Shown here: positions 7,084 to 40,874 of the stretch, one piece after another
How positions within the stretch are numbered: the first letter of the stretch is position 1
How the letters are laid out: every line of letters starts with the position of its first letter
Virus record (IMG/VR): IMGVR_UViG_3300046500_000118
Coordinates: 1-55,344 of that record
DNA length: 55,344 nt
Source: a virus
Strand: one strand, 5' to 3'
Notes under the pieces: generated by a model
Told to the model about the DNA's origin: nothing
The model's database searches: none
The model's input: the letters and a program-made list of their open reading frames with translations, nothing else
Program-made: the position numbers and the translations under genes

Positions 7084-7317
7084 ATGGCTCAGCACGTGAA
7101 TGCTCAGCTCCTCTTTGAGCACCTGAATAAGCGCACCACCCTCCAGCTCTGCGACGACTACAACGCCATGTCCGCGGGAGACGCGGACTGGCAGAAGTTC
7201 GCCGCCCGCATGGTCAGTGACCTGCTGTACCAGCGCAACGACACCGCGTGGTGGGAGTGGATGCTCGCAGGCAACCTCTTCGGCTCCGACCCGCACCCGT
7301 TCTTCGCCCCGAAGTAA
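7084..7317 (+). CDS. Hypothetical protein, 77 aa
   Basis: ATG 7084 follows AAAGG. The helical, Trp-rich product (TAWWEWMLAGNLFG) has no recognised domain. It sits alone between two hairpins, the second being the first conserved-loop element. Confidence 0.6.
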   Translation: MAQHVNAQLLFEHLNKRTTLQLCDDYNAMSAGDADWQKFAARMVSDLLYQRNDTAWWEWMLAGNLFGSDPHPFFAPK

Positions 7318-7330
7318 ACCCATAGGGAAC

Positions 7331-7357
7331 GGCCCGGACAGAGTAAGTGTCCGGGCC
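7331..7357 (+). ncRNA. Conserved-loop stem-loop, copy 1
   Basis: GGCCCGGAC, loop AGAGTAAGT (7340-7348), GTCCGGGCC, then TTTCTC. Five such elements occur only in the 7-16 kb plus-strand block, always between genes and in the sense orientation. Loop sequence and length are invariant while the stem varies by compensatory changes. It may be a terminator, a processing signal or a protein-binding RNA. Confidence 0.7.
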
Positions 7358-7383
7358 TTTCTCATCCCTGAGAAAGGCTCACC

Positions 7384-7911
7384 ATGGAACTGTCGTACAA
7401 CGAGATGTCGTGGCATCAGCAGCAGGCTTGGAAGCGCGGTGCAGCCGCGATCATCAGCGGCAAGCCGGAAGTGCAGCACGGCTACCGAAACTGTGACTGC
7501 TGCTCGTCGCTGGAGATTGGGCCGTTGGACGACGAGCCGTTCAAGTGCGACGGCTGCGAGAACGACGACTGCAACCCGGCCGAAACGGAGCACTGCTTCA
7601 CCGGCAACTGCGACGGGTCCGGATGTGGCTACTACGGGGCCTGTCACCTGCGGTGGGACTACGAGGCCGAGTTCGTTTACGAGCCCGAGGACCGGCCCGG
7701 CCTGAAATTCGAGATCGCCGCCATGGGTGGCGGCACGGTCGGTGAGGCGTACGCGGACAACGGTTGGTGGTACCGCGTGCTGCGCGACGACGAGCCGTTC
7801 TACGCGGGCAACGACCTGCGGTCGGGTGGCATCCCGCAGACGCACGAGGAGATGGCCCGAGTCCTCGTGGACTGCCTTGAGGCCGCTCACGTCGTCCCCG
7901 AGCTGGTCTGA
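7384..7911 (+). CDS. Cys-rich hypothetical protein, 175 aa
   Basis: ATG 7384 after GAAAGG. Residues 35-80 hold about a dozen cysteines (CDCCSS, CDGCENDDC, CFTGNCDGSGCGYYGAC), suggesting two or three zinc sites. The C-terminal 90 residues form a mixed alpha/beta region (EFEIAAMGGG and GIPQTHEEMARVLVDCLE). No known family is recognised. A hairpin with a 10-bp stem follows. Confidence 0.65.
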   Translation: MELSYNEMSWHQQQAWKRGAAAIISGKPEVQHGYRNCDCCSSLEIGPLDDEPFKCDGCENDDCNPAETEHCFTGNCDGSGCGYYGACHLRWDYEAEFVYEPEDRPGLKFEIAAMGGGTVGEAYADNGWWYRVLRDDEPFYAGNDLRSGGIPQTHEEMARVLVDCLEAAHVVPELV

Positions 7912-7931
7912 GCACACCTGGATTGGGTGAG

Positions 7932-7955
7932 GCACCTCGGCCGGCGCCGAGGTGC
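7932..7955 (+). terminator. Hairpin after the Cys-rich gene
   Basis: GCACCTCGGC (7932-7941), loop CGGC, GCCGAGGTGC (7946-7955): a perfect 10-bp stem without a clear U-tract. Confidence 0.5.
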
Positions 7956-8009
7956 AGCCCCCTGTCTGTGTGTACTCACAGGCCCGTAATTCGTCGGAGG
8001 GAACTCCCA

Positions 8010-8204
8010 ATGCTCAAGTGGTTCGACAGTCCGCGCCTGCACAACGTGTCGATCGGTCCTGCGATCCGCAAGTGGAGTCAGCCGCACATTCCCGGCCGGT
8101 ATCGCGTGACTGAGCCCGTAGGGGGCTCGCTCACCGGCTCTCGCTCGCTCTCGCGTCGCGGAGCTATCCGCACCTTCCAGCACTACGCCAAGAAGGGTTT
8201 CTGA
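8010..8204 (+). CDS. Small basic hypothetical protein, 64 aa
   Basis: Start ATG 8010 is chosen for the strong GGAGGGAA nine bases upstream. The product is basic and Ser/Arg-rich (TGSRSLSRRGAIRTF). Its TGA overlaps the next ATG (TGATG). It begins a five-gene overlapping cluster to 9543. Confidence 0.55.
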   Translation: MLKWFDSPRLHNVSIGPAIRKWSQPHIPGRYRVTEPVGGSLTGSRSLSRRGAIRTFQHYAKKGF

Positions 8205-8641
8205 TGTTCGACTACAGCCCTGCCGATGACAACAGCGATCGCGCTTACGTCGACTCCATGCTCTACAGCGACCAGACGGCCGACGACTTCACGCCCTACG
8301 GCGCGAACGGCTGGGGCAGGTCGGTATACATCGTCGCCTCTCAGCTCAACGGCAAGGAGACGGACGTTTACGAGGGAGGTGACTACGACAAAGCCGAGCA
8401 GATGGCTATCTCCGCTTTCGAGCGTTCCCACCGTAAGGCGTACGTGACCATCTACCTGGATGGTGGCAGTTGGCGGGACGTGAAGGCATACCCCAAGCAC
8501 CTCGCCCCGGATGCAAAGCCCGTAGTGACGGATGCCGGTGGGTGCCTGCACCCCCAGTGCGGAGAGATTCACCCGCTCTCCTGCTACTGCCGTTATGACA
8601 TGACCGCGGAAGAGATCGAGCGTTGGAAGGCGTACGCATGA
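8204..8641 (+). CDS. Hypothetical protein with C-terminal Cys cluster, 145 aa
   Basis: Coupled to the previous gene by TGATG. An acidic N-terminus is followed by a beta-rich middle (SVYIVASQLNGKETDVYEGG) and a short zinc-like cluster (CLHPQCGEIHPLSCYC). No family recognised. Confidence 0.6.
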   Translation: MFDYSPADDNSDRAYVDSMLYSDQTADDFTPYGANGWGRSVYIVASQLNGKETDVYEGGDYDKAEQMAISAFERSHRKAYVTIYLDGGSWRDVKAYPKHLAPDAKPVVTDAGGCLHPQCGEIHPLSCYCRYDMTAEEIERWKAYA

Positions 8642-8871
8642 GCGACGAGAAGACCTACACCCACGACCAGGTGAGCGAAGCCGCGAATGCGGCGGCCGAC
8701 CTGATCATTCAGGAGATCGAGTGTGACGACGAGTGGGAAGACCTGCTCAACCTGATGGTGAACGCGACCCTGACCGTTCTCACCACGGAGATGGGCGCTG
8801 ACCTCGAAGAGGTCGTGGAGGAGAACTACGGCCAGTCGTTGGACGAGTTCAAGGACGAGAGAGGTTTCTAG
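8638..8871 (+). CDS. Acidic hypothetical protein, 77 aa
   Basis: ATG 8638 overlaps the previous stop as ATGA. The product is strongly acidic and helical (IQEIECDDEWEDLLNLM). Small acidic phage proteins often bind host proteins or mimic DNA, but there is no direct evidence here. Confidence 0.6.
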   Translation: MSDEKTYTHDQVSEAANAAADLIIQEIECDDEWEDLLNLMVNATLTVLTTEMGADLEEVVEENYGQSLDEFKDERGF

Positions 8872-9089
8872 TGCCCATCCAAACGAAATGGGGCAGCACT
8901 GCCCAGACGAAATGGGACCTGATCACCGAAGCCGAAAAGGCGGATCTGGAGAAGATCCCGTTCGGCCACAGGTGCACCGGGTGCGGCGAATTGCTGGTCA
9001 CGGAGGCCAACTTCGCCAAGCACTTTTTCGTGCCCGATCCGCGGTACAAGAACATCGGGTATTGCCCGATCAAGGAAGGATTGATCTGA
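8871..9089 (+). CDS. Small zinc-binding-like protein, 72 aa
   Basis: GTG 8871 overlaps the previous stop (TAGTG). It contains CTGCGELL and a later cysteine in GYCPIKEG, plus a histidine, consistent with a degenerate zinc ribbon. No named family. Confidence 0.55.
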   Translation: MPIQTKWGSTAQTKWDLITEAEKADLEKIPFGHRCTGCGELLVTEANFAKHFFVPDPRYKNIGYCPIKEGLI

Positions 9090-9090
9090 G

Positions 9091-9543
9091 ATGAGCGAGT
9101 GGACCGTTAAGTACGACGGGCTTTCGAAGTACGGCCAGGAGAACACGCCGGACTACCGCGGATACGTGGTCCGAGTAAGCGACGGTGAGCCTGCAATTTG
9201 GTTCGCCTACGCCTACGACCAGGAGGACCAGCACACCTACTGGATCGGTAAGAGCGACACCGAGGCCGGCGCCCGCCAGCTCCTGGAACGGCTCGTAGCG
9301 GACGGCTGGCTCTGCGAGATATTCGTGAACGGTACCCAAGGCCACTGCACGGACCGGGCCGTGATGGTGAAGCACACGTGGTATGAGCGCAAGGCCGAGC
9401 GGCTGCGCACGCTGCTGTGTGAGCGGCACGGCCACGTGTTCGATGACTGGTCGCAGATGACGATCCGCGAGTACGTCAACACCTACAACGGTCTCGAACA
9501 GGACGCGCCGATCCTCGGTGACCGGATAGCACCGCAGAAGTAA
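9091..9543 (+). CDS. Hypothetical protein, 150 aa
   Basis: ATG 9091 lies one base after the previous stop. The N-terminal part is beta-rich and aromatic (GYVVRVSDGEPAIWFAYAYD) and the C-terminus helical. No recognised domain. It is the last gene before conserved-loop hairpin 2. Confidence 0.6.
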   Translation: MSEWTVKYDGLSKYGQENTPDYRGYVVRVSDGEPAIWFAYAYDQEDQHTYWIGKSDTEAGARQLLERLVADGWLCEIFVNGTQGHCTDRAVMVKHTWYERKAERLRTLLCERHGHVFDDWSQMTIREYVNTYNGLEQDAPILGDRIAPQK

Positions 9544-9564
9544 CGACGAGCGCGTTTGTCGAGA

Positions 9565-9591
9565 GGCCCGGACAGAGTAAGTGTCCGGGCC
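9565..9591 (+). ncRNA. Conserved-loop stem-loop, copy 2
   Basis: GGCCCGGAC, AGAGTAAGT (9574-9582), GTCCGGGCC, then TTTTCC. The arms are identical to copies 1 and 3, flanked by an extra A-T pair. Confidence 0.7.
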
Positions 9592-9640
9592 TTTTCCATG
9601 GGCGCTCGCCCAACTCCCCGAATTCAACGAAGGGTTCACC

Positions 9641-9958
9641 ATGCGCAAGTTCCTGCCTGCCGTCGTCCGTAACAAGCTCGCGCGTAAGCCGCGCACGATG
9701 ATCGGTTGGACGGCTGGGGACGGGATTGGCCTGACCGACACCCACCCCGCCTTCAATGCGGCCGAGCGCGTGAAGCTCGCGCTCACCATCTACGCCGGGC
9801 AGCACGACGCGGGCGAACCGCTGGAGACGGTTGCCAGCGACTTCCTTGCCGACCTATTCCACCTGCTGACGGTCGAGGGCGAGGACCCCGCGCACATCGT
9901 CAGCCGCGCGGAGCTGCACTTCGAAGCCGAGTACAACGCCGAGCCCGTTTTCGTCTGA
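9641..9958 (+). CDS. Hypothetical protein, 105 aa
   Basis: The start is set at ATG 9641, preceded by GAAGG; an upstream in-frame GTG would run through the hairpin. The basic N-terminus (RKFLPAVVRNKLARKPR) leads to a helical body (SDFLADLFHLLTVEGED). The function is unknown. Confidence 0.6.
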   Translation: MRKFLPAVVRNKLARKPRTMIGWTAGDGIGLTDTHPAFNAAERVKLALTIYAGQHDAGEPLETVASDFLADLFHLLTVEGEDPAHIVSRAELHFEAEYNAEPVFV

Positions 9959-9970
9959 GGAGAAACGACC

Positions 9971-10309
9971 ATGACTGTCTGCCTCGAAAAGATCTCCATC
10001 GGCATGGCCGGTTGCTGGCTCGATGGTCACTTCGGCTGGCACAACGCCTATCGAGTCGTACTGAAGGCCGAGGAGTTCGGGTTCGTCGTCCCGGAGGAGT
10101 ACCGGGACGTGATGGACAACTACTGCACGAACGGAAACTCCACGCTCTTCAACGAGACCGATGAGCAGTGGGAGGCCATTCACGGTCAGGGCGAACTTTC
10201 CGACCAGGCCACGGAATACCTTCAGGAGCGGGCTCCTAAGGATTACGCGTTCGTCTGGGACATGGGTGAGTTCCTGCTCATGACCGAGGAAGAGGCGTCC
10301 TACGTCTGA
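9971..10309 (+). CDS. Acidic hypothetical protein, 112 aa
   Basis: ATG 9971 follows GAGGAGA. Acidic and aromatic, with MAGCWLDGHFGWHNAYR near the N-terminus. No known domain. A hairpin with a GAAA loop follows. Confidence 0.6.
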   Translation: MTVCLEKISIGMAGCWLDGHFGWHNAYRVVLKAEEFGFVVPEEYRDVMDNYCTNGNSTLFNETDEQWEAIHGQGELSDQATEYLQERAPKDYAFVWDMGEFLLMTEEEASYV

Positions 10310-10323
10310 GCGGTTCCTGTTTG

Positions 10324-10353
10324 GTGGCGGCCGGGAAACCGGCCGTTCGCCAC
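10324..10353 (+). terminator. GAAA-capped hairpin
   Basis: GTGGC+GGCCGG (10324-10334), loop GAAA, CCGGCC (10339-10344), then GCCAC (10349-10353). A GNRA tetraloop on a two-part stem with no U-tract; intercistronic RNA structure of unknown role. Confidence 0.5.
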
Positions 10354-10378
10354 GGGTAACCGACAGAGAGGAAATGAC

Positions 10379-10885
10379 ATGTCCCGCAAGTACCCCAAGA
10401 AGGTTCGCAACGAGTTCAAGCGCAAGCTCAAGGCGGCCGATGCGTTCGTGGAGACGTGGACGAATTCCGGCTTGGCCGATTCCCTGATCGTGGATTACGA
10501 CTGCACGCTTGGGTGCGAAGAGGCCAACACCTATTCGGGCCTCATGCGTGCCTTCGGCTACGTCAATCACGCGGAAAGCATCATCGCGGACCATGGCGAG
10601 GACTGCGATCACCCGCACGCCCACGACTTCCGAGGTGTCTACACGTTCTCCTTCGACTCCCGGCTGATCGAAAGCGACGGCTGGACCATCGTCATGGACG
10701 GAAAGAACGGATTGGACGCCGAAACCAAGGCGAGGGACTTCATTGCGGATGCCCTTCGAAAGGCCCACAGAAAGTTCTTCGGGGCGTGGACGGACATTGA
10801 CCTGATCGACGTGGAGAGCGGCGTTCCCAGCTGCATGGCCCTGTACTCGTGGACCGACGCGCGCGGTTACGTGAAGGAGAAGTAA
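10379..10885 (+). CDS. Hypothetical protein, 168 aa
   Basis: ATG 10379 after GAGAGGAAA. A basic N-terminus (KYPKKVRNEFKRKLKAAD) is followed by a region with paired acidic/His clusters (DHGEDCDHPHAHD) that could hold a metal. No family recognised. The stop overlaps the next ATG (TAATG). Confidence 0.6.
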   Translation: MSRKYPKKVRNEFKRKLKAADAFVETWTNSGLADSLIVDYDCTLGCEEANTYSGLMRAFGYVNHAESIIADHGEDCDHPHAHDFRGVYTFSFDSRLIESDGWTIVMDGKNGLDAETKARDFIADALRKAHRKFFGAWTDIDLIDVESGVPSCMALYSWTDARGYVKEK

Positions 10886-11187
10886 TGGAATTTCAGCTTG
10901 GATACGGCACTGCCCACCTGTTCGCGGATGCCGTGGCCGCTTTCATACGCGGCAAGGCTGACACGGTGTGGCTGAACGAGCAGCGCGAGGAGTGGAACGA
11001 GCTGTGGGTCACCTTCCGTGATGCCGACACGGCTTCGGTGACGGTCTCCCGCGAGGCCGGCCGCCTCATGTTCTGGGTCTGGGGCGCTGCTTGGGCCTGG
11101 CGTGACCAGCACACCCGGAACCTGGTGAAGGCCGAACTTCGCCCGCAGTGGCAGACGCAGGTACGGCACCACGCCCTCACTCACTAA
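10885..11187 (+). CDS. Hypothetical protein, 100 aa
   Basis: The start ATG 10885 overlaps the previous stop. The Trp-rich product (MFWVWGAAWAWRDQ) has no transmembrane run long enough for a clear membrane call. Unknown function, last gene before hairpin 3. Confidence 0.55.
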   Translation: MEFQLGYGTAHLFADAVAAFIRGKADTVWLNEQREEWNELWVTFRDADTASVTVSREAGRLMFWVWGAAWAWRDQHTRNLVKAELRPQWQTQVRHHALTH

Positions 11188-11208
11188 TCGCTAGCCGCTT
11201 TGCCGAGA

Positions 11209-11235
11209 GGCCCGGACAGAGTAAGTGTCCGGGCC
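11209..11235 (+). ncRNA. Conserved-loop stem-loop, copy 3
   Basis: GGCCCGGAC, AGAGTAAGT (11218-11226), GTCCGGGCC, then TTTTCC. The similarity to copy 2 extends into the flanks (GAGA before, TTTTCCATGG after). Confidence 0.7.
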
Positions 11236-11266
11236 TTTTCCATGGCCGCTGGAGTAAAGGAGAAGC

Positions 11267-11527
11267 ATGGACGCGCCAGTTATGAACATCAGCTTCAAGG
11301 AGTACCCCGAGCCGAAGCGGTGGACTTCGGACGGTGGGCGGCTCCATTGGGTCGCTTACGGGGATGTCGTGGTGACGTGCTCGGAGCACGGCGAGGTGGG
11401 ACGGACTCTCGCAACGTCCAGCCTCGCCAAGGAATACCCCTGGTACGAGGGGAACGCCGTGCTGGCACAGGACAACCACATGTGGTTTTCGCACGGAATA
11501 GCCCAGGGCCATCACCGCCGTGACTGA
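11267..11527 (+). CDS. Hypothetical protein, 86 aa
   Basis: ATG 11267 after AAAGGAG. A predicted small beta-rich domain (RLHWVAYGDVVVTCSEHGEV) with a single CSEH motif. It overlaps the next gene by 8 bases. No family recognised. Confidence 0.6.
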   Translation: MDAPVMNISFKEYPEPKRWTSDGGRLHWVAYGDVVVTCSEHGEVGRTLATSSLAKEYPWYEGNAVLAQDNHMWFSHGIAQGHHRRD

Positions 11528-11855
11528 GCCCGACCCGGAGTTGGTCCGGGAATTCATGGTCATCTCTCGACTGAGAGAGCCGGGCGACGTGCGAGAGGTG
11601 ACGCCGCCTGAAGTCCGCTTCTTCAAGACCTATTACCCGGCCCACGTGAAGCGCGAGGCCGAAGAGGCTGCTCGTAGAGCCGAGTCGGAGCGGAGAGCGG
11701 CGGAGTCTCGTGAATCCTCCCGCAAGCGCGAGGCCCACAAAAAGCTCATGCGCGACATGCGCGAGTGGGGTCCTGAGAACGGCTATTTCGTCGGCACGCG
11801 GGGCCGTATCCCGCGAAAGGTCATCGAGGCATACAGAGAGGCAAAGGGACTGTGA
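11520..11855 (+). CDS. Lsr2-type DNA-binding domain protein
   Basis: 111 residues, start GTG 11520. After a long charged helix (EEAARRAESERRAAESRESS) the C-terminus reads MREWGPENGYFVGTRGRIP followed by a helix ending in IEAYREA. That matches the Lsr2 DNA-binding domain, where an RGR loop enters the AT-rich minor groove. Lsr2 is the actinobacterial H-NS analogue and silences foreign DNA. The N-terminal Lsr2 oligomerisation domain is replaced by a coiled coil. It may compete with host Lsr2 or manage phage silencing; role inferred, domain fairly clear. Confidence 0.7.
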   Translation: MTEPDPELVREFMVISRLREPGDVREVTPPEVRFFKTYYPAHVKREAEEAARRAESERRAAESRESSRKREAHKKLMRDMREWGPENGYFVGTRGRIPRKVIEAYREAKGL

Positions 11856-12196
11856 ATCACACTCATATGGCCGCGGGGATCGTCCCCGAGGAACTTTCCA
11901 ACTTGAGCGTGACCATCTCGTGGACGCCGGGCAAGACCCGCTATGCGGTCACGTTCTTCGGCGGAGACGGCAAGGCCATGGAAGGTCATGACTACTACGC
12001 CACCGCGAAAGAGCCTTTCGAGATCAATCCCAAGGAAGGGGATCTCGATATGCGCGTCTACGAAGCGATGCTGAACGTATACAACCCCCCGGCCAAGTTC
12101 GTCCAAATGCTCTCTGGATTCGGGCTCTTCAAGTGGTTCAGCCCGGCCGGTATGACCAGCAAGGCCCGTGCGGCGTACGAAGGCATTGACAAGTGA
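11852..12196 (+). CDS. Hypothetical protein, 114 aa
   Basis: GTG 11852 overlaps the Lsr2-like gene stop (GTGA). The N-terminal half is beta-rich (NLSVTISWTPGKTRYAVTFF) and the C-terminal half helical. Unknown, but translationally coupled to the Lsr2-domain gene. Confidence 0.6.
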   Translation: MNHTHMAAGIVPEELSNLSVTISWTPGKTRYAVTFFGGDGKAMEGHDYYATAKEPFEINPKEGDLDMRVYEAMLNVYNPPAKFVQMLSGFGLFKWFSPAGMTSKARAAYEGIDK

Positions 12197-12441
12197 GCCT
12201 GATGAAGCGATTCGGAATGGACCTTGACGAGCTGGGTGAGAAGGCCGCTAAGGCGGCCTGGCTCGACACTCCCGCGGAACGGCTCCGCGCCCTTACTGCG
12301 GTCTTTCAGGAATGCGGGGAGCGAGCCAACGCATACCACGATTCGATGTTCGCGGCTCGTCAGTTGGTCAAGGGGGCTGTGCTCGACTTCCGCATTGAGC
12401 GCACGGAAATGAACTGGGACAAGGAGTTTCACGGTGTCTGA
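12193..12441 (+). CDS. Hypothetical protein, 82 aa
   Basis: GTG 12193 overlaps the previous stop by GTGA. A helical, charged product (ERLRALTAVFQECGERANAY). No domain recognised. Confidence 0.6.
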   Translation: MSLMKRFGMDLDELGEKAAKAAWLDTPAERLRALTAVFQECGERANAYHDSMFAARQLVKGAVLDFRIERTEMNWDKEFHGV

Positions 12442-12820
12442 GAAGGTCACGCAGCAGGACACGCACGACCACGTTTTCGGTGTCGGCGCCTACACCTACT
12501 CGTGGTGGGAGGGCCGTGCACGGGCTTGGAAGTGGGCGTGGGACGGCATGGGAGATGTCCCGGACGGCTGGGCGTATGTGCTCAAGGCCGAGAATCCGAG
12601 CGCCGAGGGCTCGGTTGAGCGAGTGGTGAACCACTGGGCGCTGATCGGCGCCATGAACGCCATAGCGCACCCCCACGAGCCGTGGGGAGTGGACGCCGGC
12701 CCCGCGGCCATGCGGGAGTGCCGGGCCTTCCTGTTCGACCCGGACCAGGCCGACTTTGACGCGAGCACGGCGGATTGCGTGCTCCAGGTCGCTGCGTTCG
12801 GTGAAGTCGTCTACGGCTAA
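12434..12820 (+). CDS. Hypothetical protein, 128 aa
   Basis: GTG 12434, overlapping the previous gene by 8 bases. Many aromatics near the N-terminus (YTYSWWEGRARAWKWAW). No known family. It ends the overlapping cluster 11267-12820 before hairpin 4. Confidence 0.6.
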   Translation: MSEKVTQQDTHDHVFGVGAYTYSWWEGRARAWKWAWDGMGDVPDGWAYVLKAENPSAEGSVERVVNHWALIGAMNAIAHPHEPWGVDAGPAAMRECRAFLFDPDQADFDASTADCVLQVAAFGEVVYG

Positions 12821-12840
12821 CAGCGAGGGGCTTTAGTGAA

Positions 12841-12867
12841 GGCCGGGAAAGAGTAAGTTTCCCGGCC
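12841..12867 (+). ncRNA. Conserved-loop stem-loop, copy 4 (compensatory stem)
   Basis: GGCCGGGAA, AGAGTAAGT (12850-12858), TTCCCGGCC, then TTTGCC. Relative to copies 1-3, three stem positions changed on both arms so that pairing is kept, while all nine loop bases are unchanged. This is direct covariation support for the structure. Confidence 0.75.
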
Positions 12868-12940
12868 TTTGCCACGGACTCTCGCTGAGACCGAAAGTAC
12901 AACCCGAGGTCAAAAATGGAACGCACGAAAGGGTTATCAG

Positions 12941-13129
12941 ATGGCTCGCAAGGTGGTTGAGACGATCACGTGCGACGGATGCAAGAAGAAGGGGATCGAC
13001 GCTCCGGGAACCGTGAGCCTGACGATCATGGGCGATCAGTACGACCTGTGCGACGAGCACGGCAACAAGTTCAGGACTCTGCTGGCTGAGGCCCTGGGAG
13101 ACACCGGCAACGCGGCGCTGAGCGCCTAA
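12941..13129 (+). CDS. Small protein resembling the Lsr2 N-terminal fold, with Cys pairs
   Basis: 62 residues, ATG 12941 after GAAAGGG. The pattern MARKVVETITCDGC, then TVSLTIMGDQYDLC, then a helix (KFRTLLAEALG) follows the beta-beta-helix layout of the Lsr2 dimerisation domain, but adds CDGC and CDEH, which could bind zinc. Similarity to Lsr2 is my visual judgement only. It may equally be an unrelated zinc ribbon. Confidence 0.45.
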   Translation: MARKVVETITCDGCKKKGIDAPGTVSLTIMGDQYDLCDEHGNKFRTLLAEALGDTGNAALSA

Positions 13130-13148
13130 TCAAGGGGAGGATCAGGAA

Positions 13149-14489
13149 GTGTCGACGTTCGAGCAGATGTCATTTGGGCCTATGGGCGAGGCTGTGAAGG
13201 CTGCTATGCCTACGAGCGAGGCGGACCCCATCGGAGTCTGGGCTGCCGGTCTGGCAATGTATTCCTCAGCAATTAGCCGTACCGTACGACTCGACAACCG
13301 CAGGCCGGTCGTAGTCTGGACTGTGCTTGCCGGCCGCTCGGCCATCGGTCGTAAGGGTTACGCGTACAACACGGCCAATGCCGTGCTCGGCAAGACTCTC
13401 GGCGGCTTCATGCGCACGCGGAAGCGTGACGGAGTCTCGTCCGGCCCGTCCCTCGTTGACATGCTCTCGAAGATGGAGCTGGATACGGTGGGAGAAGAGG
13501 GCGGAATAGACGGTCGCACGATCATCGTTGAGGAGGAATGGGCCTCGGTACTCAAGGTCCAGAAGCGGTGCTCCAAGTTCAGCACCCTTTTCCGTACGGC
13601 CTGGGATGGAAAGCCGATCTCGAACAGGACAAAGAAGGACGGATTGCAGTCGGTTGCTCAGCCGCTTCTGGGGTTTCACGCCCACATCACTCCGGGTGAA
13701 TGGGCGAAGTATGTGAGTAGCAGCGAGGCTCTGGGAGGCTCGTACAACAGGCTTTTGCCGGTGCTGGTCGAGCGTTCGAAGATGCTCCCGTACAACAGCA
13801 AGCCTGTAGTCCCGGACACCAAGCCGCTTCAGGCGGCCTTCGAGTGGGCCACCGAGGAAGCCCGCGTCATGCGCTTCACTCAGGAGGCTGGAGAGCGGTA
13901 CGACGAGATCCGGGCCATCGTTGAGGATCGCATGGCGGAGATGCCCGAGCTGCTGTCGTCGTACATGGAGCGGGCGGCGGAGCAGGTACAGCGCATCTCG
14001 GCTGTCCTGGCTTCCACGGAGATGACGGAAGAGATCAGCACCGCGGCTGTTGAGGCGGCGTGGGCGTTCGTCTCCTTCTCCATGGCCAGTGTCGAGAAGC
14101 TGGTGAAGGACGCGGCATCGGACAGCGGTCCGAAGTCCTTGCAGGCGCCTGAGGACATGATCCGCGACGTGCTCAAGCGGTACGGCGGCGAGGCCCAGTC
14201 GTCGGCTTTGCTGCGAGCCCTGTGGGGCCGGATGAACGCGGCCGGCATCAAAGAGACGGTCGAGACCATGGATGACGTGGAGATGGTCAAGGAGAAGTCA
14301 CCGGGGCGAGGAGCCCCGAAGACGATCTATCGCCTGACCAGTGAACAGGACCAGGACGAGGACGAGCAGAAGCACGCCAAGCCCACGTTGAAGGTGCTCA
14401 ACGGGGAGCGACTGAGCCAGGCCGCGAAGCCGAAGCGGCAGCCCGCGGCGGCCAACGTGAACCCGTTCATGGCTGCTCTGGACCTGTAG
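13149..14489 (+). CDS. DUF3987-like P-loop-related replication protein
   Basis: 446 residues, GTG 13149 after GGGGAGG. An N-terminal helical segment (DPIGVWAAGLAMYSSAIS) precedes a degenerate nucleotide-binding loop (VLAGRSAIGRKGYA) and an acidic strand-end (RTIIVEEEWASVL). This is the layout of DUF3987 proteins, often paired with primase-polymerases on mobile elements. The C-terminal 100 residues hold a winged-helix-like segment (MIRDVLKRYGGEAQ). The first lysine of a classic Walker A is not obvious, so ATPase activity is uncertain. It is the largest protein of the left block. Confidence 0.5.
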   Translation: MSTFEQMSFGPMGEAVKAAMPTSEADPIGVWAAGLAMYSSAISRTVRLDNRRPVVVWTVLAGRSAIGRKGYAYNTANAVLGKTLGGFMRTRKRDGVSSGPSLVDMLSKMELDTVGEEGGIDGRTIIVEEEWASVLKVQKRCSKFSTLFRTAWDGKPISNRTKKDGLQSVAQPLLGFHAHITPGEWAKYVSSSEALGGSYNRLLPVLVERSKMLPYNSKPVVPDTKPLQAAFEWATEEARVMRFTQEAGERYDEIRAIVEDRMAEMPELLSSYMERAAEQVQRISAVLASTEMTEEISTAAVEAAWAFVSFSMASVEKLVKDAASDSGPKSLQAPEDMIRDVLKRYGGEAQSSALLRALWGRMNAAGIKETVETMDDVEMVKEKSPGRGAPKTIYRLTSEQDQDEDEQKHAKPTLKVLNGERLSQAAKPKRQPAAANVNPFMAALDL

Positions 14490-14497
14490 GAAGGGAT

Positions 14498-14719
14498 ATG
14501 GGCAAGTGCAACAAGGGGCTGTTCGTTCGCCCCTCCAAGAGAGTCGAAGAGATCTTTTCGCACGGCTCCCACGACGAGGCTTGGGGAGTCGTTGAAGAGT
14601 GGGCAGAAAAGATCAAGAAGCTTGGTATTGCTGATCGGTTCGGCGTGCACATGGCACGAAATGACCGAGGCTCGTTCGACGTGTTCCTGACCGACCGTTC
14701 TATCCCCACGACTACCTGA
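14498..14719 (+). CDS. Hypothetical protein, 73 aa
   Basis: ATG 14498 after AGGAAGG, eight bases behind the DUF3987-like gene. A small alpha/beta protein (HDEAWGVVEEWAEKIKKLG) without a recognised family; probably cotranscribed. Confidence 0.6.
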   Translation: MGKCNKGLFVRPSKRVEEIFSHGSHDEAWGVVEEWAEKIKKLGIADRFGVHMARNDRGSFDVFLTDRSIPTTT

Positions 14720-14730
14720 AAGGTACCGCC

Positions 14731-15612
14731 ATGCCTGAGACCATCACGCTTCCTGTGCCCGGACAGATTCGCCGGCACGTCATCAAGAACCTCGAACCGA
14801 CGACCAAGGGTGAGAGGGACCTCAAGGCCGCCAGCATCGCCGGCCACAAGGAGCTGGTAGCGCAGGAGAGGAACAGCCTCAACACGATCGATCTCCACCT
14901 GACCAATGAGGCCCTGGGGGTGGCGCTCGACATCGCCCGTGGCTGGCTCGACAGCGACAACGGCAACAACGTCATGGCGGGGAAGTCGATGCTCAAGTTC
15001 GAACTGGAGTACGAGCCGGATGACCCGCGAGAGATCCGGCACGCAATCAAGATGCCCAAGAGCCTGTCGGGGCAGTTCTCCGGTGAGTACGGCTACGACC
15101 CGAAGAGGTGGCTGAAGGAAGACAACGTTGTCCGCTTCGATCTGGACTGCATGAGTTGGACGGGAACCGGGGCGTCGGGTCGCGTCCGCGCCGAAACCCT
15201 CGGGTGGTTCCTGGGGAGGATGGGCAGGCTCACCGATCACCCTCACCCGGCCGTGCAGCGGGCAGCGAAGAAGTTCGTCAGCACCTACACCGAGCCGTAC
15301 GCCAAGACTCAGCGGCTCATCGCCGGATACGTGGAGATCGAGGACCAGGACCAGGCCCCCGAGCCTGAGACGGAGATCCTGACGGCCGACGACTTCCAGG
15401 CCGCTATTCGCGGCCGTGGTCCCGAACTGGTGGACGACGAGCCCGACGAGGGTCAGGCCCCTGAGCCCGCGGCCGTCGAGGAGACGGCGCCGCCCGAGAA
15501 CGGATACGAAGTGCCGGCCAACTTCCTGGAGCTGGCTGAGGAGGGCAACACCGTCGCCGCTAAGAAGTACTGGAAGCGGCGTTGCGAGGAGTACCGGAGG
15601 ACTGGCAAGTGA
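14731..15612 (+). CDS. Hypothetical protein, 293 aa
   Basis: ATG 14731 after AAAGG. Residues 1-210 look like a globular domain (EALGVALDIARGWLDS and SLSGQFSGEYGYDPKRW). An acidic, Pro-rich linker (EPDEGQAPEPAAVEE) and a short basic helix (KKYWKRRCEEYRRTGK) end the protein. The function is unknown; it is likely in the operon with the DUF3987-like gene, so a DNA transaction role is plausible. Confidence 0.65.
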   Translation: MPETITLPVPGQIRRHVIKNLEPTTKGERDLKAASIAGHKELVAQERNSLNTIDLHLTNEALGVALDIARGWLDSDNGNNVMAGKSMLKFELEYEPDDPREIRHAIKMPKSLSGQFSGEYGYDPKRWLKEDNVVRFDLDCMSWTGTGASGRVRAETLGWFLGRMGRLTDHPHPAVQRAAKKFVSTYTEPYAKTQRLIAGYVEIEDQDQAPEPETEILTADDFQAAIRGRGPELVDDEPDEGQAPEPAAVEETAPPENGYEVPANFLELAEEGNTVAAKKYWKRRCEEYRRTGK

Positions 15613-15723
15613 ATCCAAGCGAGATGCCTCAACAGAGACGAATGCGCCCCGTGCAAGGGCGCTTTTCTTCTCTCACCCGCAAGTGGCAGAATCTCAGCAA
15701 CACACAATCCTGGGAGGAAGCCA

Positions 15724-15939
15724 GTGGCAACGGTACTGCGGCCGAGAGATCTGAATCCTTCAGCCAGCATGGCCGAGTTCGAGTTCTGGAAGTGCCGGCA
15801 GTGCGGAGCTGAGCCCTTGGGCCTGTTCGAGGACGAGCGAGGCAGGTACCACTACCGCCACGACGATCCTGACGGGCTGGACCCGCACACGGACATCATC
15901 CCTCTCGGATACGTGGACGGCATACTCACGAGATTCTGA
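15724..15939 (+). CDS. Small zinc-ribbon-like protein, 71 aa
   Basis: GTG 15724 is preceded by GGGAGGAA. The core is EFWKCRQCGAEPLG followed by an HYRHDD segment, like a half zinc ribbon. A shorter start (ATG 15769) is possible. It is followed by conserved-loop hairpin 5. Confidence 0.55.
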   Translation: MATVLRPRDLNPSASMAEFEFWKCRQCGAEPLGLFEDERGRYHYRHDDPDGLDPHTDIIPLGYVDGILTRF

Positions 15940-15951
15940 ATTAACGAGAAA

Positions 15952-15982
15952 CGGCCCAGGGCAGAGTAAGTGCCCTGGGCCG
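15952..15982 (+). ncRNA. Conserved-loop stem-loop, copy 5 (longest stem)
   Basis: CGGCCCAGGGC, AGAGTAAGT (15963-15971), GCCCTGGGCCG. The 11-bp stem sequence differs from all other copies and stays fully paired; the loop is identical. Followed by TTCTCTTG. Confidence 0.75.
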
Positions 15983-16025
15983 TTCTCTTGTCATCGTACA
16001 GGCGGATCGCTCAAGACTGAATACG

Positions 16026-27500: not shown

Positions 27501-30134
27501 GTGCGAGACCTCGCCCTTCAGGGCAGTGAGAGCAAGCCCGTTGAGCTTGTTTACCTGCTTGATCGAGCCCTTGGCAGCGGTCGTGACGCTGTCCGACTTC
27601 GCCTTGAGCCCCTTGAACTCGCCCTCGACGTGGTTCAGGTTGTGGTCGTTGAGGGCCGACACAGCCGACTTGGAGTGGTCGACCGACGTCTTGAACGCGT
27701 CGTCCTTCTGCGTGAGCTTCTTGAACTCGGTTTCGAGGCCCTGGAGTTGAAGATCCCGGAGGTTCTTCACCGCGGTCTCTGCGTCGCGGACCGCCTTCTC
27801 GGCCAGGTCCGCCTTCGCCTTGACACTGGAGTCCTTACCGGCGAACTCGTCGGCAAGCTGCTTCAGGTTCTCGGTCTTGAGATCGCTGATCTTGGTCTTC
27901 AGGTCCGAGATCTCACGCTCAAGATCCTTGACGTTCTGCTGGGCTCGGGACGTGTCGAGCTGAAGTTCCTCAGCCTGGCGCCTGGGGCTCTGCGCGGTAC
28001 GTCGAGCCTGGTAGCCACTCTTGAAGCCGTTGCCCTTGATGGCGGAGACAGCGCCGCTGACCACCCTAGACCCGAACTTTGCGGTGCCCTTGGTGAGCTT
28101 GAACGCACCCTTAGCCAGGCCGGCAATAGGTGACATCAGCTTGATGACGCCACCGACCAGCTTGAAGAGCGTGCCGAAGAGGAGAGCCCCGGTACCGATG
28201 ATCGCCGCGAACTTGCCGACCTTGATAATGAGGTCCGTCAGACCAGGGTGGTTCTTCAGGTAGTCCGTGGTCTTCTTCAACCACCCAGCAAAGATCGTCA
28301 GGTCCTTGAAAAGCTCCTTGATGATCTTTGCCGAAGGGCCCTTCAGATCTTTCGCGAGATCCGAGACCGTATTGAGGAGACCGCCCTTGTACTCATAGCC
28401 AACGGTCTTATCAACGAAGCCGTGCGCCTTCTTGTCGTAGACCCGCTTCGTGATGGCAGTCTTCTTACCCATGAGGGCTTCGCCGGCACCGGAGTACTCG
28501 TAGGTGCCATCCTTGTTCGGCTTGACGAACATGTTGGCCAGGCCGTACTTGCCCTGTTCCCACATGTTCGACAGGCGAGCGCCAATCGTCGCGGAACCCT
28601 GACTGATAGCCGAACCAGCAACCTTGGGATCACGGCCGCGCTTCAGGAGGGCGTCAACAATTCCCTCACCAGGGACACCGCCCGTGGTCTTGGCATCAGC
28701 CATCCAGTCCATCATCTGAGCCGAAGCGGTGTACTCCTTCGGCAAGGCAATCTTGATGCCCTTCTTCTTCTGCTGGTCGAGCTTGGCCTGGATTTCCTTC
28801 TTGGTGAACTTCCGGTCCGTGAATCCGAAGGTCTCGGCGAGTTCCTGAATGGGGATACCGGCATTGTCGGCAAGAGACTTGACGTTGCGCAGGGACGCGC
28901 GGTCAGCGTCCTGCATGATGCTGACGGCGTACATGGCACGGCCCACCTGAGCGGGGTCCGTAATACCGGCGAACGCCGAGAGGTTACCGATGGCCTCAAC
29001 AAGCGACGTGGCGCGCTTCGAAGCCTCCTTGGACGAACGACCGTGCGCCTTGCCAGCACGGGCATACTGAGTGCCGTACTTGAACATGTCCTCGACGGAA
29101 TACGGGGTCGCCGTACCGTAGGTCTTCAGCTCGTTGATCTGCTTCGCCGTGTCCTTGTTGGACACGCCCATTCGCTGAAGAGCGGTCTGAGCCTGCATCA
29201 TCGAGTCAGCCGCGGAGACACCCAGGTACGACATGGCGCCGGCAGCAGTCAGCAGAGGCGTAACCACGTTCCGCGTGATGGTGCGTCCGAAGTCGCTCAT
29301 GGTGGAGCCGAAGGCAGACACCTTCGTCCCGACGCTATGCACCGCGCCGGTCCAACTCTTCTCCACCTTGCGGGCGTTGCCCTGGAGAGTCCGGACCGTA
29401 GCGTTGTTCTGCCGGATCGTGTCCAGAGCCGCAGCCTTTTGAGCCTTCGCGGTGTTGAGAGCACCCTGAACCGCAGCGACGTCCGCCCTACGCTGCGTCT
29501 CCATCTGGGAGAGGATCTGAGCCTTGCGGGTGTTGTACCCCTCCGTGTAGGCGGCCTGAGCCTCACGAGCGGCAGTCTTCTGCGCAGTCGCCTCCATGGA
29601 CGCCTGGCGGATGATGAGCTTGGACAGGGAGGAGATCTGAACCTCACGGGCCCGCGCCTGGCGCGCTACCTCAGCGGCCTTCTCCTTCTCGGCGGCGAGC
29701 ACGGCCTTAGCCGATGCCGCAACCTCCGCCCTCTCCGCAACAGCGATGCGGGCGTTGGACTGCTCCACGTACTTGGCAAAAGCAGCCTGCTGCCTCTCCC
29801 GCTCGGCAAGCTGCTTCGCCTGGGCAGCCGTCACAGCCTTCATGGCCTTGAGGTAGCTAGCAGCCTCAGAGTTGGAGAGCTTCTTACGGGCCTCGATCGC
29901 GGCCTTCTCGACCTCGACCCGCTTAGCGGCCTCTTCCCCGTATTGGGCAGTGATCCACGCCTGGAGCTTTGCCTCAAGCTTGGCAGTCTGCTGAGCAAGC
30001 TTCTCGCGAGTACCAGAGAACTTGGCAATGGCCTCTTGTGCCCTGTCCAGCTCGGCCTTCAGCTCAGCCTGATTCATCTCGGGGGTGATCAGGATGAATG
30101 CGGAACCAACCTGAATCCTGCCCTTAGTCGACAT
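24555..30134 (-). CDS. Tape measure protein with lytic transglycosylase domain
   Basis: 1859 residues, ATG 30134 after GGGGAGCC. A long N-terminal coiled coil rich in Ala/Lys/Glu is followed by hydrophobic segments near residues 640-680 and a second coiled coil. Around residue 1270-1370 an SLT-like domain is visible: catalytic Glu in IGVESGGNP, then GLMQTIPQTF, then YAGLNYAVHRYG, suitable for local peptidoglycan cleavage during DNA entry. The Gly-rich unit GEEGPELVQFGGGE is repeated near the C-terminus as GERGPELINFGGGE. The length sets the tail length, and it follows the frameshifted chaperones. Confidence 0.95.
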   Translation of the reverse strand: MSTKGRIQVGSAFILITPEMNQAELKAELDRAQEAIAKFSGTREKLAQQTAKLEAKLQAWITAQYGEEAAKRVEVEKAAIEARKKLSNSEAASYLKAMKAVTAAQAKQLAERERQQAAFAKYVEQSNARIAVAERAEVAASAKAVLAAEKEKAAEVARQARAREVQISSLSKLIIRQASMEATAQKTAAREAQAAYTEGYNTRKAQILSQMETQRRADVAAVQGALNTAKAQKAAALDTIRQNNATVRTLQGNARKVEKSWTGAVHSVGTKVSAFGSTMSDFGRTITRNVVTPLLTAAGAMSYLGVSAADSMMQAQTALQRMGVSNKDTAKQINELKTYGTATPYSVEDMFKYGTQYARAGKAHGRSSKEASKRATSLVEAIGNLSAFAGITDPAQVGRAMYAVSIMQDADRASLRNVKSLADNAGIPIQELAETFGFTDRKFTKKEIQAKLDQQKKKGIKIALPKEYTASAQMMDWMADAKTTGGVPGEGIVDALLKRGRDPKVAGSAISQGSATIGARLSNMWEQGKYGLANMFVKPNKDGTYEYSGAGEALMGKKTAITKRVYDKKAHGFVDKTVGYEYKGGLLNTVSDLAKDLKGPSAKIIKELFKDLTIFAGWLKKTTDYLKNHPGLTDLIIKVGKFAAIIGTGALLFGTLFKLVGGVIKLMSPIAGLAKGAFKLTKGTAKFGSRVVSGAVSAIKGNGFKSGYQARRTAQSPRRQAEELQLDTSRAQQNVKDLEREISDLKTKISDLKTENLKQLADEFAGKDSSVKAKADLAEKAVRDAETAVKNLRDLQLQGLETEFKKLTQKDDAFKTSVDHSKSAVSALNDHNLNHVEGEFKGLKAKSDSVTTAAKGSIKQVNKLNGLALTALKGEVSHVKNETDDTTKKVGPGKSSLIGRIGQLNSLQTDKIVKEIKKLKSALSDTAGEAEILNTRLDNISNHAPGGNSKSGSSKSSSKKKRRKATGGVLPGYTPGRDVHRFVSPTAGELHLSGGESIMRPEFTEAVGHSFIHKMNHIARQKGVGGVRHAMKFAGGGILGKLGLDKLIEASKNFNISSDGLGALATMTMDSSSRQLGGDAQSGVVGAGTSGSHFIGKDLAEKLEGMKNFMSRDSWNLLKKLPIPDGYSQAIGIIGGAVGPVAGDYFWKDVWKGKGNILQRGESFISDLLSWKTLKSVVGNFFGGVWDTVKSVWDSGTSFLTDPIGSITDTVKGVWDLVEGEYDGVIDTANVLKEIVTSPKDYASQVWGDVESTAKDSLPNLKGLFDFSGKHLKTKAPDVSKLADKQLSTPGVGSSVSRWTPQVKMALAQLGLSPSNLALVLHRIGVESGGNPKAINLTDSNAKAGYPSQGLMQTIPQTFKAYAGPYFKRGITDPLASIYAGLNYAVHRYGSGWTKALSGIKGYATGTKGAAKGWAWVGEEGPELVQFGGGETVLNHQDSKLATVKTLKGYATGTGSKRTTGVAADAEKGVSSLNSAVNKLYQIIKDAFTSNRISSKTANSLNKWLDGENKQLQKLVKQRADLAPKLKDANAKLAQIKKDESAMASSISDKAKGLRSLTDVFNDSGVSASAGLNSLHERLAAIKSFQSDLSALTKKGFSKDIISEIAQAGPEQGDSMAKELLKSTAAQVSDYNKTYKAIGTASDSLGKSVAGSYYKAGKAAAQSLVDGLTAKDNKLKKQIEGIADTITKTLKKKLHFNSKTQVSAGLASLLTWLTGEGQAVKGGGNTSKKKTTRVTTTYSTDSKGRKVTTVTTTTTDPAKGTTTTVTERTVGGKTTKTTKVSKIKGYATGTRSASPGMAMVGERGPELINFGGGERVYNAKDTAGMVGPKYEIHVHEAKSENTTQAVLRAMKYAETMAAL

Positions 30135-39173: not shown

Positions 39174-39500
39174 TTAGCTATGGCCACGTTCGGTGTATGT
39201 CTTCCGTTTGTGGCAGGTCCGACATAGAACCCAAAGGTTGTCCAGCTCCCACGAACCACCGCGGGCTACCGGGACGATGTGATCCACCTCAAGGTGCTCC
39301 CTCGCCCCGCACTGCTGGCAGGTGAACCGGTCTCTGGCAAGGGTTCTGGCCCTACGCCGAGACCAGTCAGAGGGCCTCGAAGCATTTCGAGCAGACGCTC
39401 TATCCCAGCTCTTCCGGAGCTGGTGTTCTCCGCAGCGACCGTCTCTCACGGTCGGGGTGAGGCAGCCCGTGTTCAGGCAGATGCTCTTGGCCCTGGGCAT
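39174..39500 (-). CDS. HNH endonuclease
   Basis: 108 residues; start ATG 39500 is set by GGGAGGG. A first Cys cluster (CLNTGCLTPTVRDGRCGEH) is followed by the HNH core: CQQCGAREHLEVDHIVPVARGG, WELDNLWVLCRTCHKRKT (split here for length). Such HNH proteins next to terminase assist cos cleavage and packaging in HK97- and phiC31-type phages. It is the first gene of the late minus-strand block. Confidence 0.9.
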   Translation of the reverse strand: MPRAKSICLNTGCLTPTVRDGRCGEHQLRKSWDRASARNASRPSDWSRRRARTLARDRFTCQQCGAREHLEVDHIVPVARGGSWELDNLWVLCRTCHKRKTYTERGHS

Positions 39501-39971
39501 GTCCCTCCCTGAGGTCTGAGGCCCCGGCCGGGTTCTGGTCTGGCAGCCGGGGCCGTCTCCCGGACGGCTCATCTGGAGCGGGTCACGCTCAACAGAGGGT
39601 CAACAGGAGATGCTTATGAGATCTATAAGTATGACTTTTTAAAGTCTGTCTACAGCCAAGTAGACAAGAACTTCTTAACGCTCTCTAACACTGTGTCTTG
39701 GTCGTTCGTTCGCTCGTTTCACTCGCTCTCTCACTAAGGATGTCGGTGTCAAAGCTGTTGGTCTGTGACGCGAGTTGGGGGAAGTGAGATCGAGGTCACA
39801 CTCTCAAGGTGTGACGTTGCTCCGTCCCAGGTCGCTTGGCAGGTAGGGCTTGAAAGTGTGGCGGCGAAGGCTGTAGCTTGTCTCAAGATCGCAGCACCCA
39901 TGCCCACCAGTGATGAAACCGAACTCACTGACCGCCCAGTGACGAAACCACACTGACAGGACTCGGAAAAG
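39501..39971. other. Divergent control region and candidate cos
   Basis: I see no firm gene here. The region separates the late (minus) and early (plus) blocks. It has an AT-rich core with the imperfect palindrome CTTATGAGATCTATAAG near 39612, AGTCTGTCTACAGCC, a repetitive CGTTCGTTCGCTCGTTTCAC stretch, the palindrome GTCACAC/GTGTGAC around 39796-39816, and two copies of CAGTGAYGAAACC between 39909 and 39950. Late and early promoters and the cos site could all lie here. Confidence 0.5.
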
Positions 39972-40466
39972 ATGACGAAACTGCCGGACAACCCGGAGCT
40001 ATTGAAGCTCTACAGGAACGGATTTTCCGATAAGGAAATTGCCGTGCAGTTCGACGTCACCGTTCAGGCTGTCAATTTGCGACTTCAGCAAATGGGCATT
40101 AAGCGTGCGCCTTTCCGGACTGTGGCAAAGGAAATACTCGAAGCCGCGTGGCCTTCGATAGAGACACGACGGGGTGAATTTATTCACCTGAATCGTGCGC
40201 GTGATCTCTATGCATTCCTGCGTCGGCAACTCGGAGACCCTGCGCTCACTAAAAATCAGCGCACTGCCGCAGAACGATTCGATCGTCTGATCAGGTCGCA
40301 GAATGCCGTTATGGACCTCCAGCCTGACGCCCCAGGCGGACCGTGGGTTCTCCTGCCTCGCAAGCCCTCAGACGGGCGTATGGTCATCCGCTGGCCCGAG
40401 GGCCGCGATCTGCCCAAGGGGGAGCTTCGGGCCGCACTGGACCTCCCGGACGAGCCCGAGGATTAG
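39972..40466 (+). CDS. HTH protein, candidate immunity repressor
   Basis: 164 residues, ATG 39972. The N-terminal helix-turn-helix is clear (LLKLYRNGFSDKEIAVQFDV, TVQAVNLRLQQMGIKR). A helical middle (EFIHLNRARDLYAFLRRQLG) and a hydrophilic C-terminus follow. Size, single N-terminal HTH and location between the late and early blocks, with repeats upstream and an operator downstream, resemble repressors of L5-like phages that bind asymmetric sites. It could instead be a late-gene activator. Confidence 0.6.
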   Translation: MTKLPDNPELLKLYRNGFSDKEIAVQFDVTVQAVNLRLQQMGIKRAPFRTVAKEILEAAWPSIETRRGEFIHLNRARDLYAFLRRQLGDPALTKNQRTAAERFDRLIRSQNAVMDLQPDAPGGPWVLLPRKPSDGRMVIRWPEGRDLPKGELRAALDLPDEPED

Positions 40467-40501
40467 ACTTCGTCCAACTCCCCGCGCGTAGATTGACTTG
40501 G

Positions 40502-40534
40502 ACCTCCCACACCGAAGGTGGCGGGAGGTTTTTT
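40502..40534 (+). terminator. Intrinsic terminator after HTH gene
   Basis: ACCTCCC (40502-40508) pairs with GGGAGGT (40523-40529), inner CACC/GGTG, followed by TTTTTT. Confidence 0.85.
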
Positions 40535-40874
40535 CATGTCCGAAGGCCCGTTCGGCATTACCGTACGGGCGTTGTTGCATCTTGTACTTTTAAACTTCCT
40601 TGACTGATCACGCACTGTAGTCACAAGCGGAAGCTACTCATCCGTAGGTGTCCGTACTGCCCGATTGGTGCCAACCTTGATCGCCCAGTGTCACAGTTTC
40701 AAGATCAGTAAGACGGTTGTATGTGACACCGAACACGTTTTGGTGTCTCACCTGCGGAAACTCGGGGTTTTAACGCGTTCCTAACCTTGCTACGTTGATT
40801 CACAGGAGCTTCACAACGGCTCCCTACACGTGACGGACAGGACCCCCGCAGGGGGTTGGGGCTTGGGGAGCGTT
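40535..40874 (+). promoter_or_regulatory. Early promoter region with 13-bp operator
   Basis: TCACAGTTTCAAG (40691-40703) is a one-mismatch operator copy, embedded in the inverted repeat GTGTCACA/TGTGACAC (about 40688-40735). Candidate promoter elements are TTGATC-N17-CAAGAT overlapping the operator, and TACGTT near 40790 with a TTTAAC 16 bases upstream. GGGGAG sets the start at 40875. Confidence 0.55.

Follow-up and report, generated by a model that had tools for sequence, protein, structure and literature searches.

The window analysed in this study, which is the whole 55,344-base virus record IMGVR_UViG_3300046500_000118, belongs to an R4-like temperate Streptomyces phage (R4/cluster A type) and carries five intercistronic hairpins with one and the same apical loop. 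The corresponding gene block of at least 22 related phages and prophages also contains hairpins, frequently in homologous positions, and the loop sequence, hereafter the word, is constant across the hairpins of one phage despite differing stems and is different between phages. Our favoured explanation, to which we give about even confidence, is that the hairpins represent five copies of one intercistronic RNA element, which bears a word private to the phage, and that this word is most likely read by a phage-encoded RNA-binding protein that co-evolved with it. Loops normally change faster than stems, and a word that is frozen within a genome on changing stems, and re-invented in each relative, is a strong sign of a specific reader.

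One loop on five stems in the window

Exactly five copies of the 9-mer AGAGTAAGT are present in the window (7340, 9574, 11218, 12850 and 15963), on the + strand only, against 0.12 expected copies and a maximum of one in the shuffled window. When one mismatch was allowed, the remaining matches in the window were at background level. In every case the 9-mer is an apical loop, and the stem beneath it has 10-15 pairs when G-U pairs are counted. The arm GGCCCGGACA is common to three of the five copies, and the other two have the arms GGCCGGGAAA and GGCCCAGGGCA, with both sides changed to match. The initial annotation of this sequence, which had reported the positions, the loop and the arms of these hairpins, including three copies with the same arms and two with matched changes, is borne out in all these respects. 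Its extent of the element holds less well, since sites 2-4 are longer than it stated and belong to an element of about 86 nucleotides (nt) with an outer helix.

Sites 1-4 lie in the forward-strand block of small genes and start 13-17 nt 3' of the end of the upstream open frame (7084-7317 in the case of site 1), and site 5 is found in the same block. The word hairpin of site 1, GGCCCGGACA-GAGTAAG-TGTCCGGGCC, spans 7331-7357 (+ strand), and that of site 5, AACGGCCCAGGGCA-GAGTAAG-TGCCCTGGGCCGTT, spans 15950-15984 (+ strand), with the 9-mer at 15963-15971. The block also contains a wordless hairpin with a GAAA tetraloop, GGCGGCCGG-gaaa-CCGGCCGTT, at 10326-10347 (+ strand), which has tetraloop counterparts at this position in relatives.

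Phage-private words across the family

Loci of relatives were gathered from IMG/VR and Streptomyces genomes with a marker gene at 13149-14489 of the window (+ strand), which encodes a DUF3987-like protein of 446 aa homologous to Ponzi gp66. Words were searched for by scanning for 7-mers that recur within hairpin loops. The closest annotated relative of the window is Streptomyces phage Ponzi (77% identity across 20% of the first 25 kb; loci L001/L003), and Success (L011/L012) and Ibantik (group L009, L081 and L082) are more distant. Locus L060 is a prophage of S. typhae, and L024 is the contig IMGVR_UViG_3300046513_000178.

The word GAGTAAG, found in five hairpins of the window, is replaced by GTCGAGA in Ponzi (four hairpins), GTCGATG in L015 (three), GTAGCAG in L016 (four), AGGCGAG in L017 (two), GCCAAAG in L018 (four), GGTTCAG in L019 (two) and ATGGTGC in L020 (four). 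TTGATGT is the word of L023/L024 (five to six hairpins), TTGACGC that of L025/L022, and GAGGAAG that of the S. typhae prophage (four). The remaining words are AGGCTAAG in L063 (three), AGGGATG in L064 (five to seven), AAGTTGGAATG in L066 (three), TCCTAAG in L072 (three), AGGGGTA in L077 (six to seven), ATGAGTA in L078 (five to six), TCTCGTA in L082 (two), GATGCGA in L084 (three), G[AG]GTCAG in L085 (five) and AAGGACAC in Success (seven, intergenic). The words drift rather than jump, because related phages have related words, as in the window and L060 (GAGTAAG and GAGGAAG), Ponzi and L015 (GTCGAGA and GTCGATG), L024 and L025 (TTGATGT and TTGACGC), and L064 and L077 (AGGGATG and AGGGGTA). A near relative, L014, the marker gene of which is 95% identical to that of the window, retains GAGTAAG at site 5 on an altered stem.

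In a swap test over 17 genomes, each genome had 2-7 hairpin loops with its phage's own word (3.9 on average), as against 0.35 with a foreign word, and the own word outside hairpin loops was close to background. Block-level shuffles never reached the real counts either, with five real hairpins against a maximum of two in the window, eight against two in Success and six against two in L077. Altogether, 85 word hairpins with 70 distinct 5' arms were counted in 22 phages, at a lenient stem threshold that also admits some chance hits in coding sequence. In the 69 unique stems, 7.7 of the eight loop-proximal pairs are kept, compared with 3.9 when the 3' arms are permuted, and all eight loop-proximal positions are occupied by several pair types. 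The word is kept even where the loop-adjacent stem is broken, as in L025, L020 and L024. Loops that diverge freely while only the stems are kept, the pattern that the initial annotation had named as contrary to its proposal, were not seen; the loops diverge between phages, in concert within each genome.

The Ibantik group carries a hairpin set of its own, flanked by TATC...TCTTACTG and with loops built on CTCG(T/A), which is possibly a third version of the element. Nothing describing these hairpins was found in our literature searches, outside which most subscription papers lay.

A covarying scaffold of about 86 nt

Alignment of sites 2-4 with their homologues reveals an element of about 86 nt, in which a covarying outer helix and a conserved internal loop (CUUUGg...CCAUGG) enclose the word hairpin, with the consensus ...GAGCnCCUUUGnCGAGAGGCCCGGACA-word-UGUCCGGGCCUUUnCCAUGGnCGCUC.... 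Two-sided changes are present in 13 of its 20 pairs, six of them in the outer helix, and the covariation score is 0.387, versus 0.156 for shuffles and at most 0.131 for slid pairings.

A covariance model, R1, was built from 16 sequences, among them window sites 2-4 as training copies. On the + strand of the window, R1 scores 84.8 bits at site 2 (full element 9540-9625; inner hairpin 9561-9595; AGAGTAAGT at 9574-9582), 85.3 bits at site 3 (11184-11269; inner hairpin 11205-11239; word 11218-11226) and 70.2 bits at site 4 (12817-12901; inner hairpin 12836-12872; word 12850-12858), where the stem is unlike those of sites 1-3. At site 1, the inner part of R1 matches at 7323-7365 with 26.9 bits. At site 5 the outer scaffold was not found, and R1 gives no match there at E<=0.01. 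Rfam 15 yields no match above the gathering score over the whole window.

A covariance-model search of this kind had been suggested in the initial annotation, and with R1 it recovers further full-length copies throughout the phage family, phages without a word included. In the latter the same scaffold bears a tetraloop, such as UUCG, CUUU, AUCA or CAGU. At the homologous site 5' of the 13149 gene, a word is present in the window, L020, L022, L024, L064, L077, L078 and Success, whose place is taken by a tetraloop in Ponzi, L069, L070, L065, L068 and L073. Phage R4 contains neither the word family nor a match to the scaffold model. Among 61 genomes searched around that of S. typhae, strong scaffold hits are confined to the S. 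typhae prophage, and the other 60 genomes give weak single hits only. Judged from this distribution, the scaffold is phage-borne, and an origin from host terminators, which was also considered, was rejected on the weakness of those single matches.

Predicted alternative pairing with the Shine-Dalgarno sequence

At site 1, folding predicts a second hairpin, HP2 (7353-7380, + strand), in which the Shine-Dalgarno sequence (SD; AGAAAGG) of the gene starting at 7384 is base-paired to the 3' arm of the word hairpin plus a few further bases, and which is predicted to be mutually exclusive with the word hairpin. With the 5' arm masked, HP2 folds at -28.7 kcal/mol and leaves an unpaired SD fraction of 0.00. 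Equivalents of HP2 are present in Ponzi, L016, L019 and L069, and the SD of the window, Ponzi, L015 and L016, partly open otherwise, is completely paired once the 5' arm is masked. The extension private to HP2 covaries, being CTC/GAG in the window, GTGT/ACAC in Ponzi and L016, and GCGT/ACGC in L019. An unrelated site in L085 and L078 has the same SD-pairing arrangement by way of CCTCCCC/GGGGAGG.

An SD was recognisable in 54 elements, 16 of which show a fall in its unpaired fraction exceeding 0.3 and three a rise. The mean complementarity of an element's own arm to its SD exceeds that of permuted pairs (0 of 2000 permutations), although homologous copies are not independent and the complementarity is strong in eight elements only. 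SD pairing is therefore regarded as a property of a subset of elements, and SD switching as a rule for all sites, being clear at a minority only, was rejected. The predicted alternative pairing is nevertheless the best sign that the hairpins may act as RNA in the cell and that closure of the word hairpin could free the ribosome-binding site.

A probable loop-reading factor acting on RNA

Because the loop is uniform within a phage and different between phages, and because L014 keeps GAGTAAG on a changed stem, the loop sequence is constrained independently of the stem, which makes a sequence-specific reader acting in trans likely. The initial annotation had proposed a protein or a small RNA as the partner of the loop. 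A sequence-specific reader is likely on the present data, and the small-RNA option fares poorly, at least for an RNA encoded by the phage (see below). A protein is the reader that we favour.

In the mechanism that we propose, the reader protein would bind the word hairpin on the phage's own early transcript and hold it closed. Where the hairpin belongs to a switch, as at site 1, its 3' arm would double as the anti-Shine-Dalgarno strand of the competing hairpin, so that, with the word hairpin held closed, the ribosome-binding site of the next gene would stay open; this is the direction of effect that we infer. At the other sites, what becomes of the transcript at the gene junction would depend on binding, through read-through, processing or coupling. 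Of the roles previously envisaged, namely antitermination, processing or coordinated regulation, the first two are not shown by our analyses, and the clearest clue, SD pairing at some sites, points to translation.

The closest known parallel is the N/boxB system of lambdoid phages, in which a phage-specific hairpin loop of the early transcript, the same throughout one phage and different in its relatives, is read by the phage's own protein. The words behave likewise, with the same loop at all sites of a phage and another loop in relatives. However, boxB is a hairpin of about 15 nt with a GNRA-like pentaloop and is found once or twice per genome, close to early promoters, whereas the word hairpins have words of 7-9 nt, no common fold signature and a much longer scaffold, and lie at gene junctions in up to seven copies per genome. 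No GNRA-like pentaloop pattern was detected in their loops, which measure 7-12 nt (e.g., GAGTAAG, GTCGAGA and TTGATGT).

Several observations weigh against this explanation. About half of the loci bearing gp66 are without the word family, and deviant loops occur at a few sites of word-bearing phages (site 5 of L016, site 2 of L017, and one site each in L072 and L019). A clear SD switch is limited to a minority of sites, essentially from two site lineages. Moreover, scans for presence/absence and for co-variation revealed no reader gene. No gene separates the 18 word-bearing from the seven word-less genomes compared, and gp66 (DUF3987), which was considered as the reader, was rejected on the grounds that word-less phages have it too. 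In the analysis of gene families that co-vary with the words over 17 phages, the family of Ponzi gp37 ranks first (partial correlation about 0.4-0.5); its member in the window is the fast-evolving gene after the repressor, at 40830-41375 (+ strand; the start could be 40875). Among the nine nearest phages, however, this family is only 10th of 81, and the permutation ignores shared ancestry. The AlphaFold model of gp37 (pLDDT, a predicted confidence score, of 78) has no significant match in the PDB, the best being ribosomal S6-like with an E value of 0.015. As the family ranks first over the 17 phages but not within close relatives, gp37 is a weak lead to the reader and no more.

A further-reaching proposal, which we put forward tentatively and consider less probable than the explanation given above, is that the words constitute an RNA self-recognition code, in which, for every phage of this family, a private loop word on a shared scaffold marks a set of the phage's own gene junctions and a cognate factor switches translation or read-through of accessory early genes. 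If so, co-infecting or resident relatives with another word would not be served by the reader, and the code would mirror immunity specificity at the RNA level while being independent of the repressor-stoperator DNA system in the same genomes. The 22 or more words with their hairpins form a natural specificity panel for finding the reader. Should the reader be a protein, the phages would contain many orthogonal RNA-hairpin/protein pairs that could be used as tethering tools, as well as a further layer of self-recognition beside the known repressor-stoperator immunity.

Alternative explanations

The hairpins could instead be recombination or module-boundary sites, with the word as the crossover spacer of a recombinase or as a short homology for the exchange of gene cassettes. 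An arbitrary but uniform asymmetric centre of 7-9 bp would suit a spacer rule, and all word sites have a single orientation. The near-identical phages L023 and L024 are distinguished by the loss of one small gene that lay between a word hairpin and the tetraloop hairpin following it, and the junction falls in the shared 3' arm (L024 contig 29614-29995). This junction, however, lies outside the loop, and the arms, which would be the part bound by a recombinase, are the very diverse yet exactly complementary part of the element, while the spacer is identical. No recombinase common to all word-bearing phages was seen, with serine integrases in Ponzi and Ibantik and a tyrosine recombinase in Success. 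The covariation of the outer helix and the alternative pairing with the SD also suggest RNA. This explanation is possible, though unlikely, and is weaker than that of a reader acting on RNA.

We find it rather improbable that the hairpins are ordinary intrinsic terminators or mRNA-end hairpins, the loops of which are identical through duplication or gene conversion and serve no function. Their GC-rich stems do come after stop codons, site 1 has a T-rich tail, and the tetraloop hairpins on the same scaffold within the block could be plain terminators. Under a terminator rule requiring at least five T in the eight bases directly after the hairpin, however, only site 1 of the five passes. The stems have diverged with compensation while the loop is unchanged, in L014 as well, whereas a neutral loop should change first, and the word outlasts breakage of the loop-adjacent stem. 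The view that plain terminators are inadequate, expressed earlier on the ground of the conserved loop, is thus upheld. A very strong classical terminator, with a 16-bp stem followed by TTTTGTTTTT, is present at 1136-1171 of the window and contrasts with the word hairpins.

Recognition of the loop by an antisense small RNA encoded by the phage is highly improbable. Loop-loop contacts of 6-7 nt are common, and an arbitrary, freely changing word of 7 nt would suit a base-pairing partner; yet related phages have related words that drift gradually. Complements of words of 7-11 nt, sought on either strand and within hairpin loops against a swap control, gave nothing: in the 17-genome test, the reverse complement of the own word shows no excess over those of foreign words on the + strand or in loops (4.65 versus 3.90 per genome overall, 0.29 versus 0.28 in loops), and extended words of 8-11 nt have no complement in most genomes. 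The 54.6-kb phage of L072 contains neither a 7-mer nor a 6-mer complement of its word.

The least probable explanation is that the word is a stoperator, the DNA site through which, in lysogens, an immunity repressor of the cluster A type obstructs RNA polymerase. Word-bearing phages do encode such a repressor, which in the window is a protein of the L5/TipsytheTRex stoperator-binding type (39972-40466, + strand; homologue of Ponzi gp38) and was rejected as the reader. The stoperators of cluster A mycobacteriophages and R4-like Streptomyces phages are, like the words, asymmetric, intergenic, oriented with transcription and phage-specific (PMC9283540, PMC6550527), as well as short and multi-copy. 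Unlike the words, they are DNA sites of 13 bp that lack a hairpin, some of them at early promoters, and in Ponzi and Success a different repeated intergenic motif fits the role: AACTTGAAACTGTCA, with a copy adjoining the repressor gene, and AGTTGCCTCCTGGGT, respectively. AGAGTAAGT is absent from the repressor/early-promoter region of the window (39480-41400), with the nearest exact or one-mismatch match at 41895 in a coding frame, and the word is not enriched outside hairpins. Word similarity does not follow repressor similarity (partial correlation 0.13), in that the repressors of the window and L016 are 75% identical and their words differ, whereas those of the window and the S. typhae prophage are 47% identical and their words are similar. 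Nor would a DNA roadblock need a covarying stem.

AACTTGAAACTGTCA and AGTTGCCTCCTGGGT are the probable true stoperators of Ponzi and Success. In oriented coordinates, the AACTTGAAACTGTCA sites of Ponzi lie at 256, 1636, 35049, 37244, 38323, 44902 and 55020. In the window, TCAAGATC occurs twice around the repressor/early-promoter region, at 39883 and 40699, and could belong to a stoperator of the window itself; TTTCAAGATC was also seen near the repressor.

Relation to other repeats and target hairpins

ANTAR targets are paired hexaloops with fixed positions. They resemble the word hairpins in that a loop read by a protein controls expression after transcription start (PMC3369931), but the pattern of two tandem hexaloop hairpins with fixed A1 and G4 does not occur here, the word hairpins being single, with words of 7-9 nt and no loop position invariant across phages. 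The SAS/ESAS repeats of cluster K mycobacteriophages are likewise multi-copy and of one orientation, located in the half of the genome with non-structural genes, with inverted repeats 5' of gene starts and a subcluster-specific consensus (PMC3203893). In ESAS, however, the arms of the inverted repeat are conserved and the spacer is variable (PMC3203893), which is the reverse of the constant loop and varying arms of the word hairpins. The 17-bp palindromes of cluster O mycobacteriophages are also inverted repeats in many copies, often intergenic, but their arms are invariant and their 3-bp centre varies, and many are located within genes and in both orientations (PMC4351075); in the word hairpins the arms vary and the centre is invariant.

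Between the marker gene and site 5, the window gene at 14731-15612 encodes a DUF6884-containing protein of 293 aa, compared with 490-630 aa in most close relatives, and the gene may be shortened or split.

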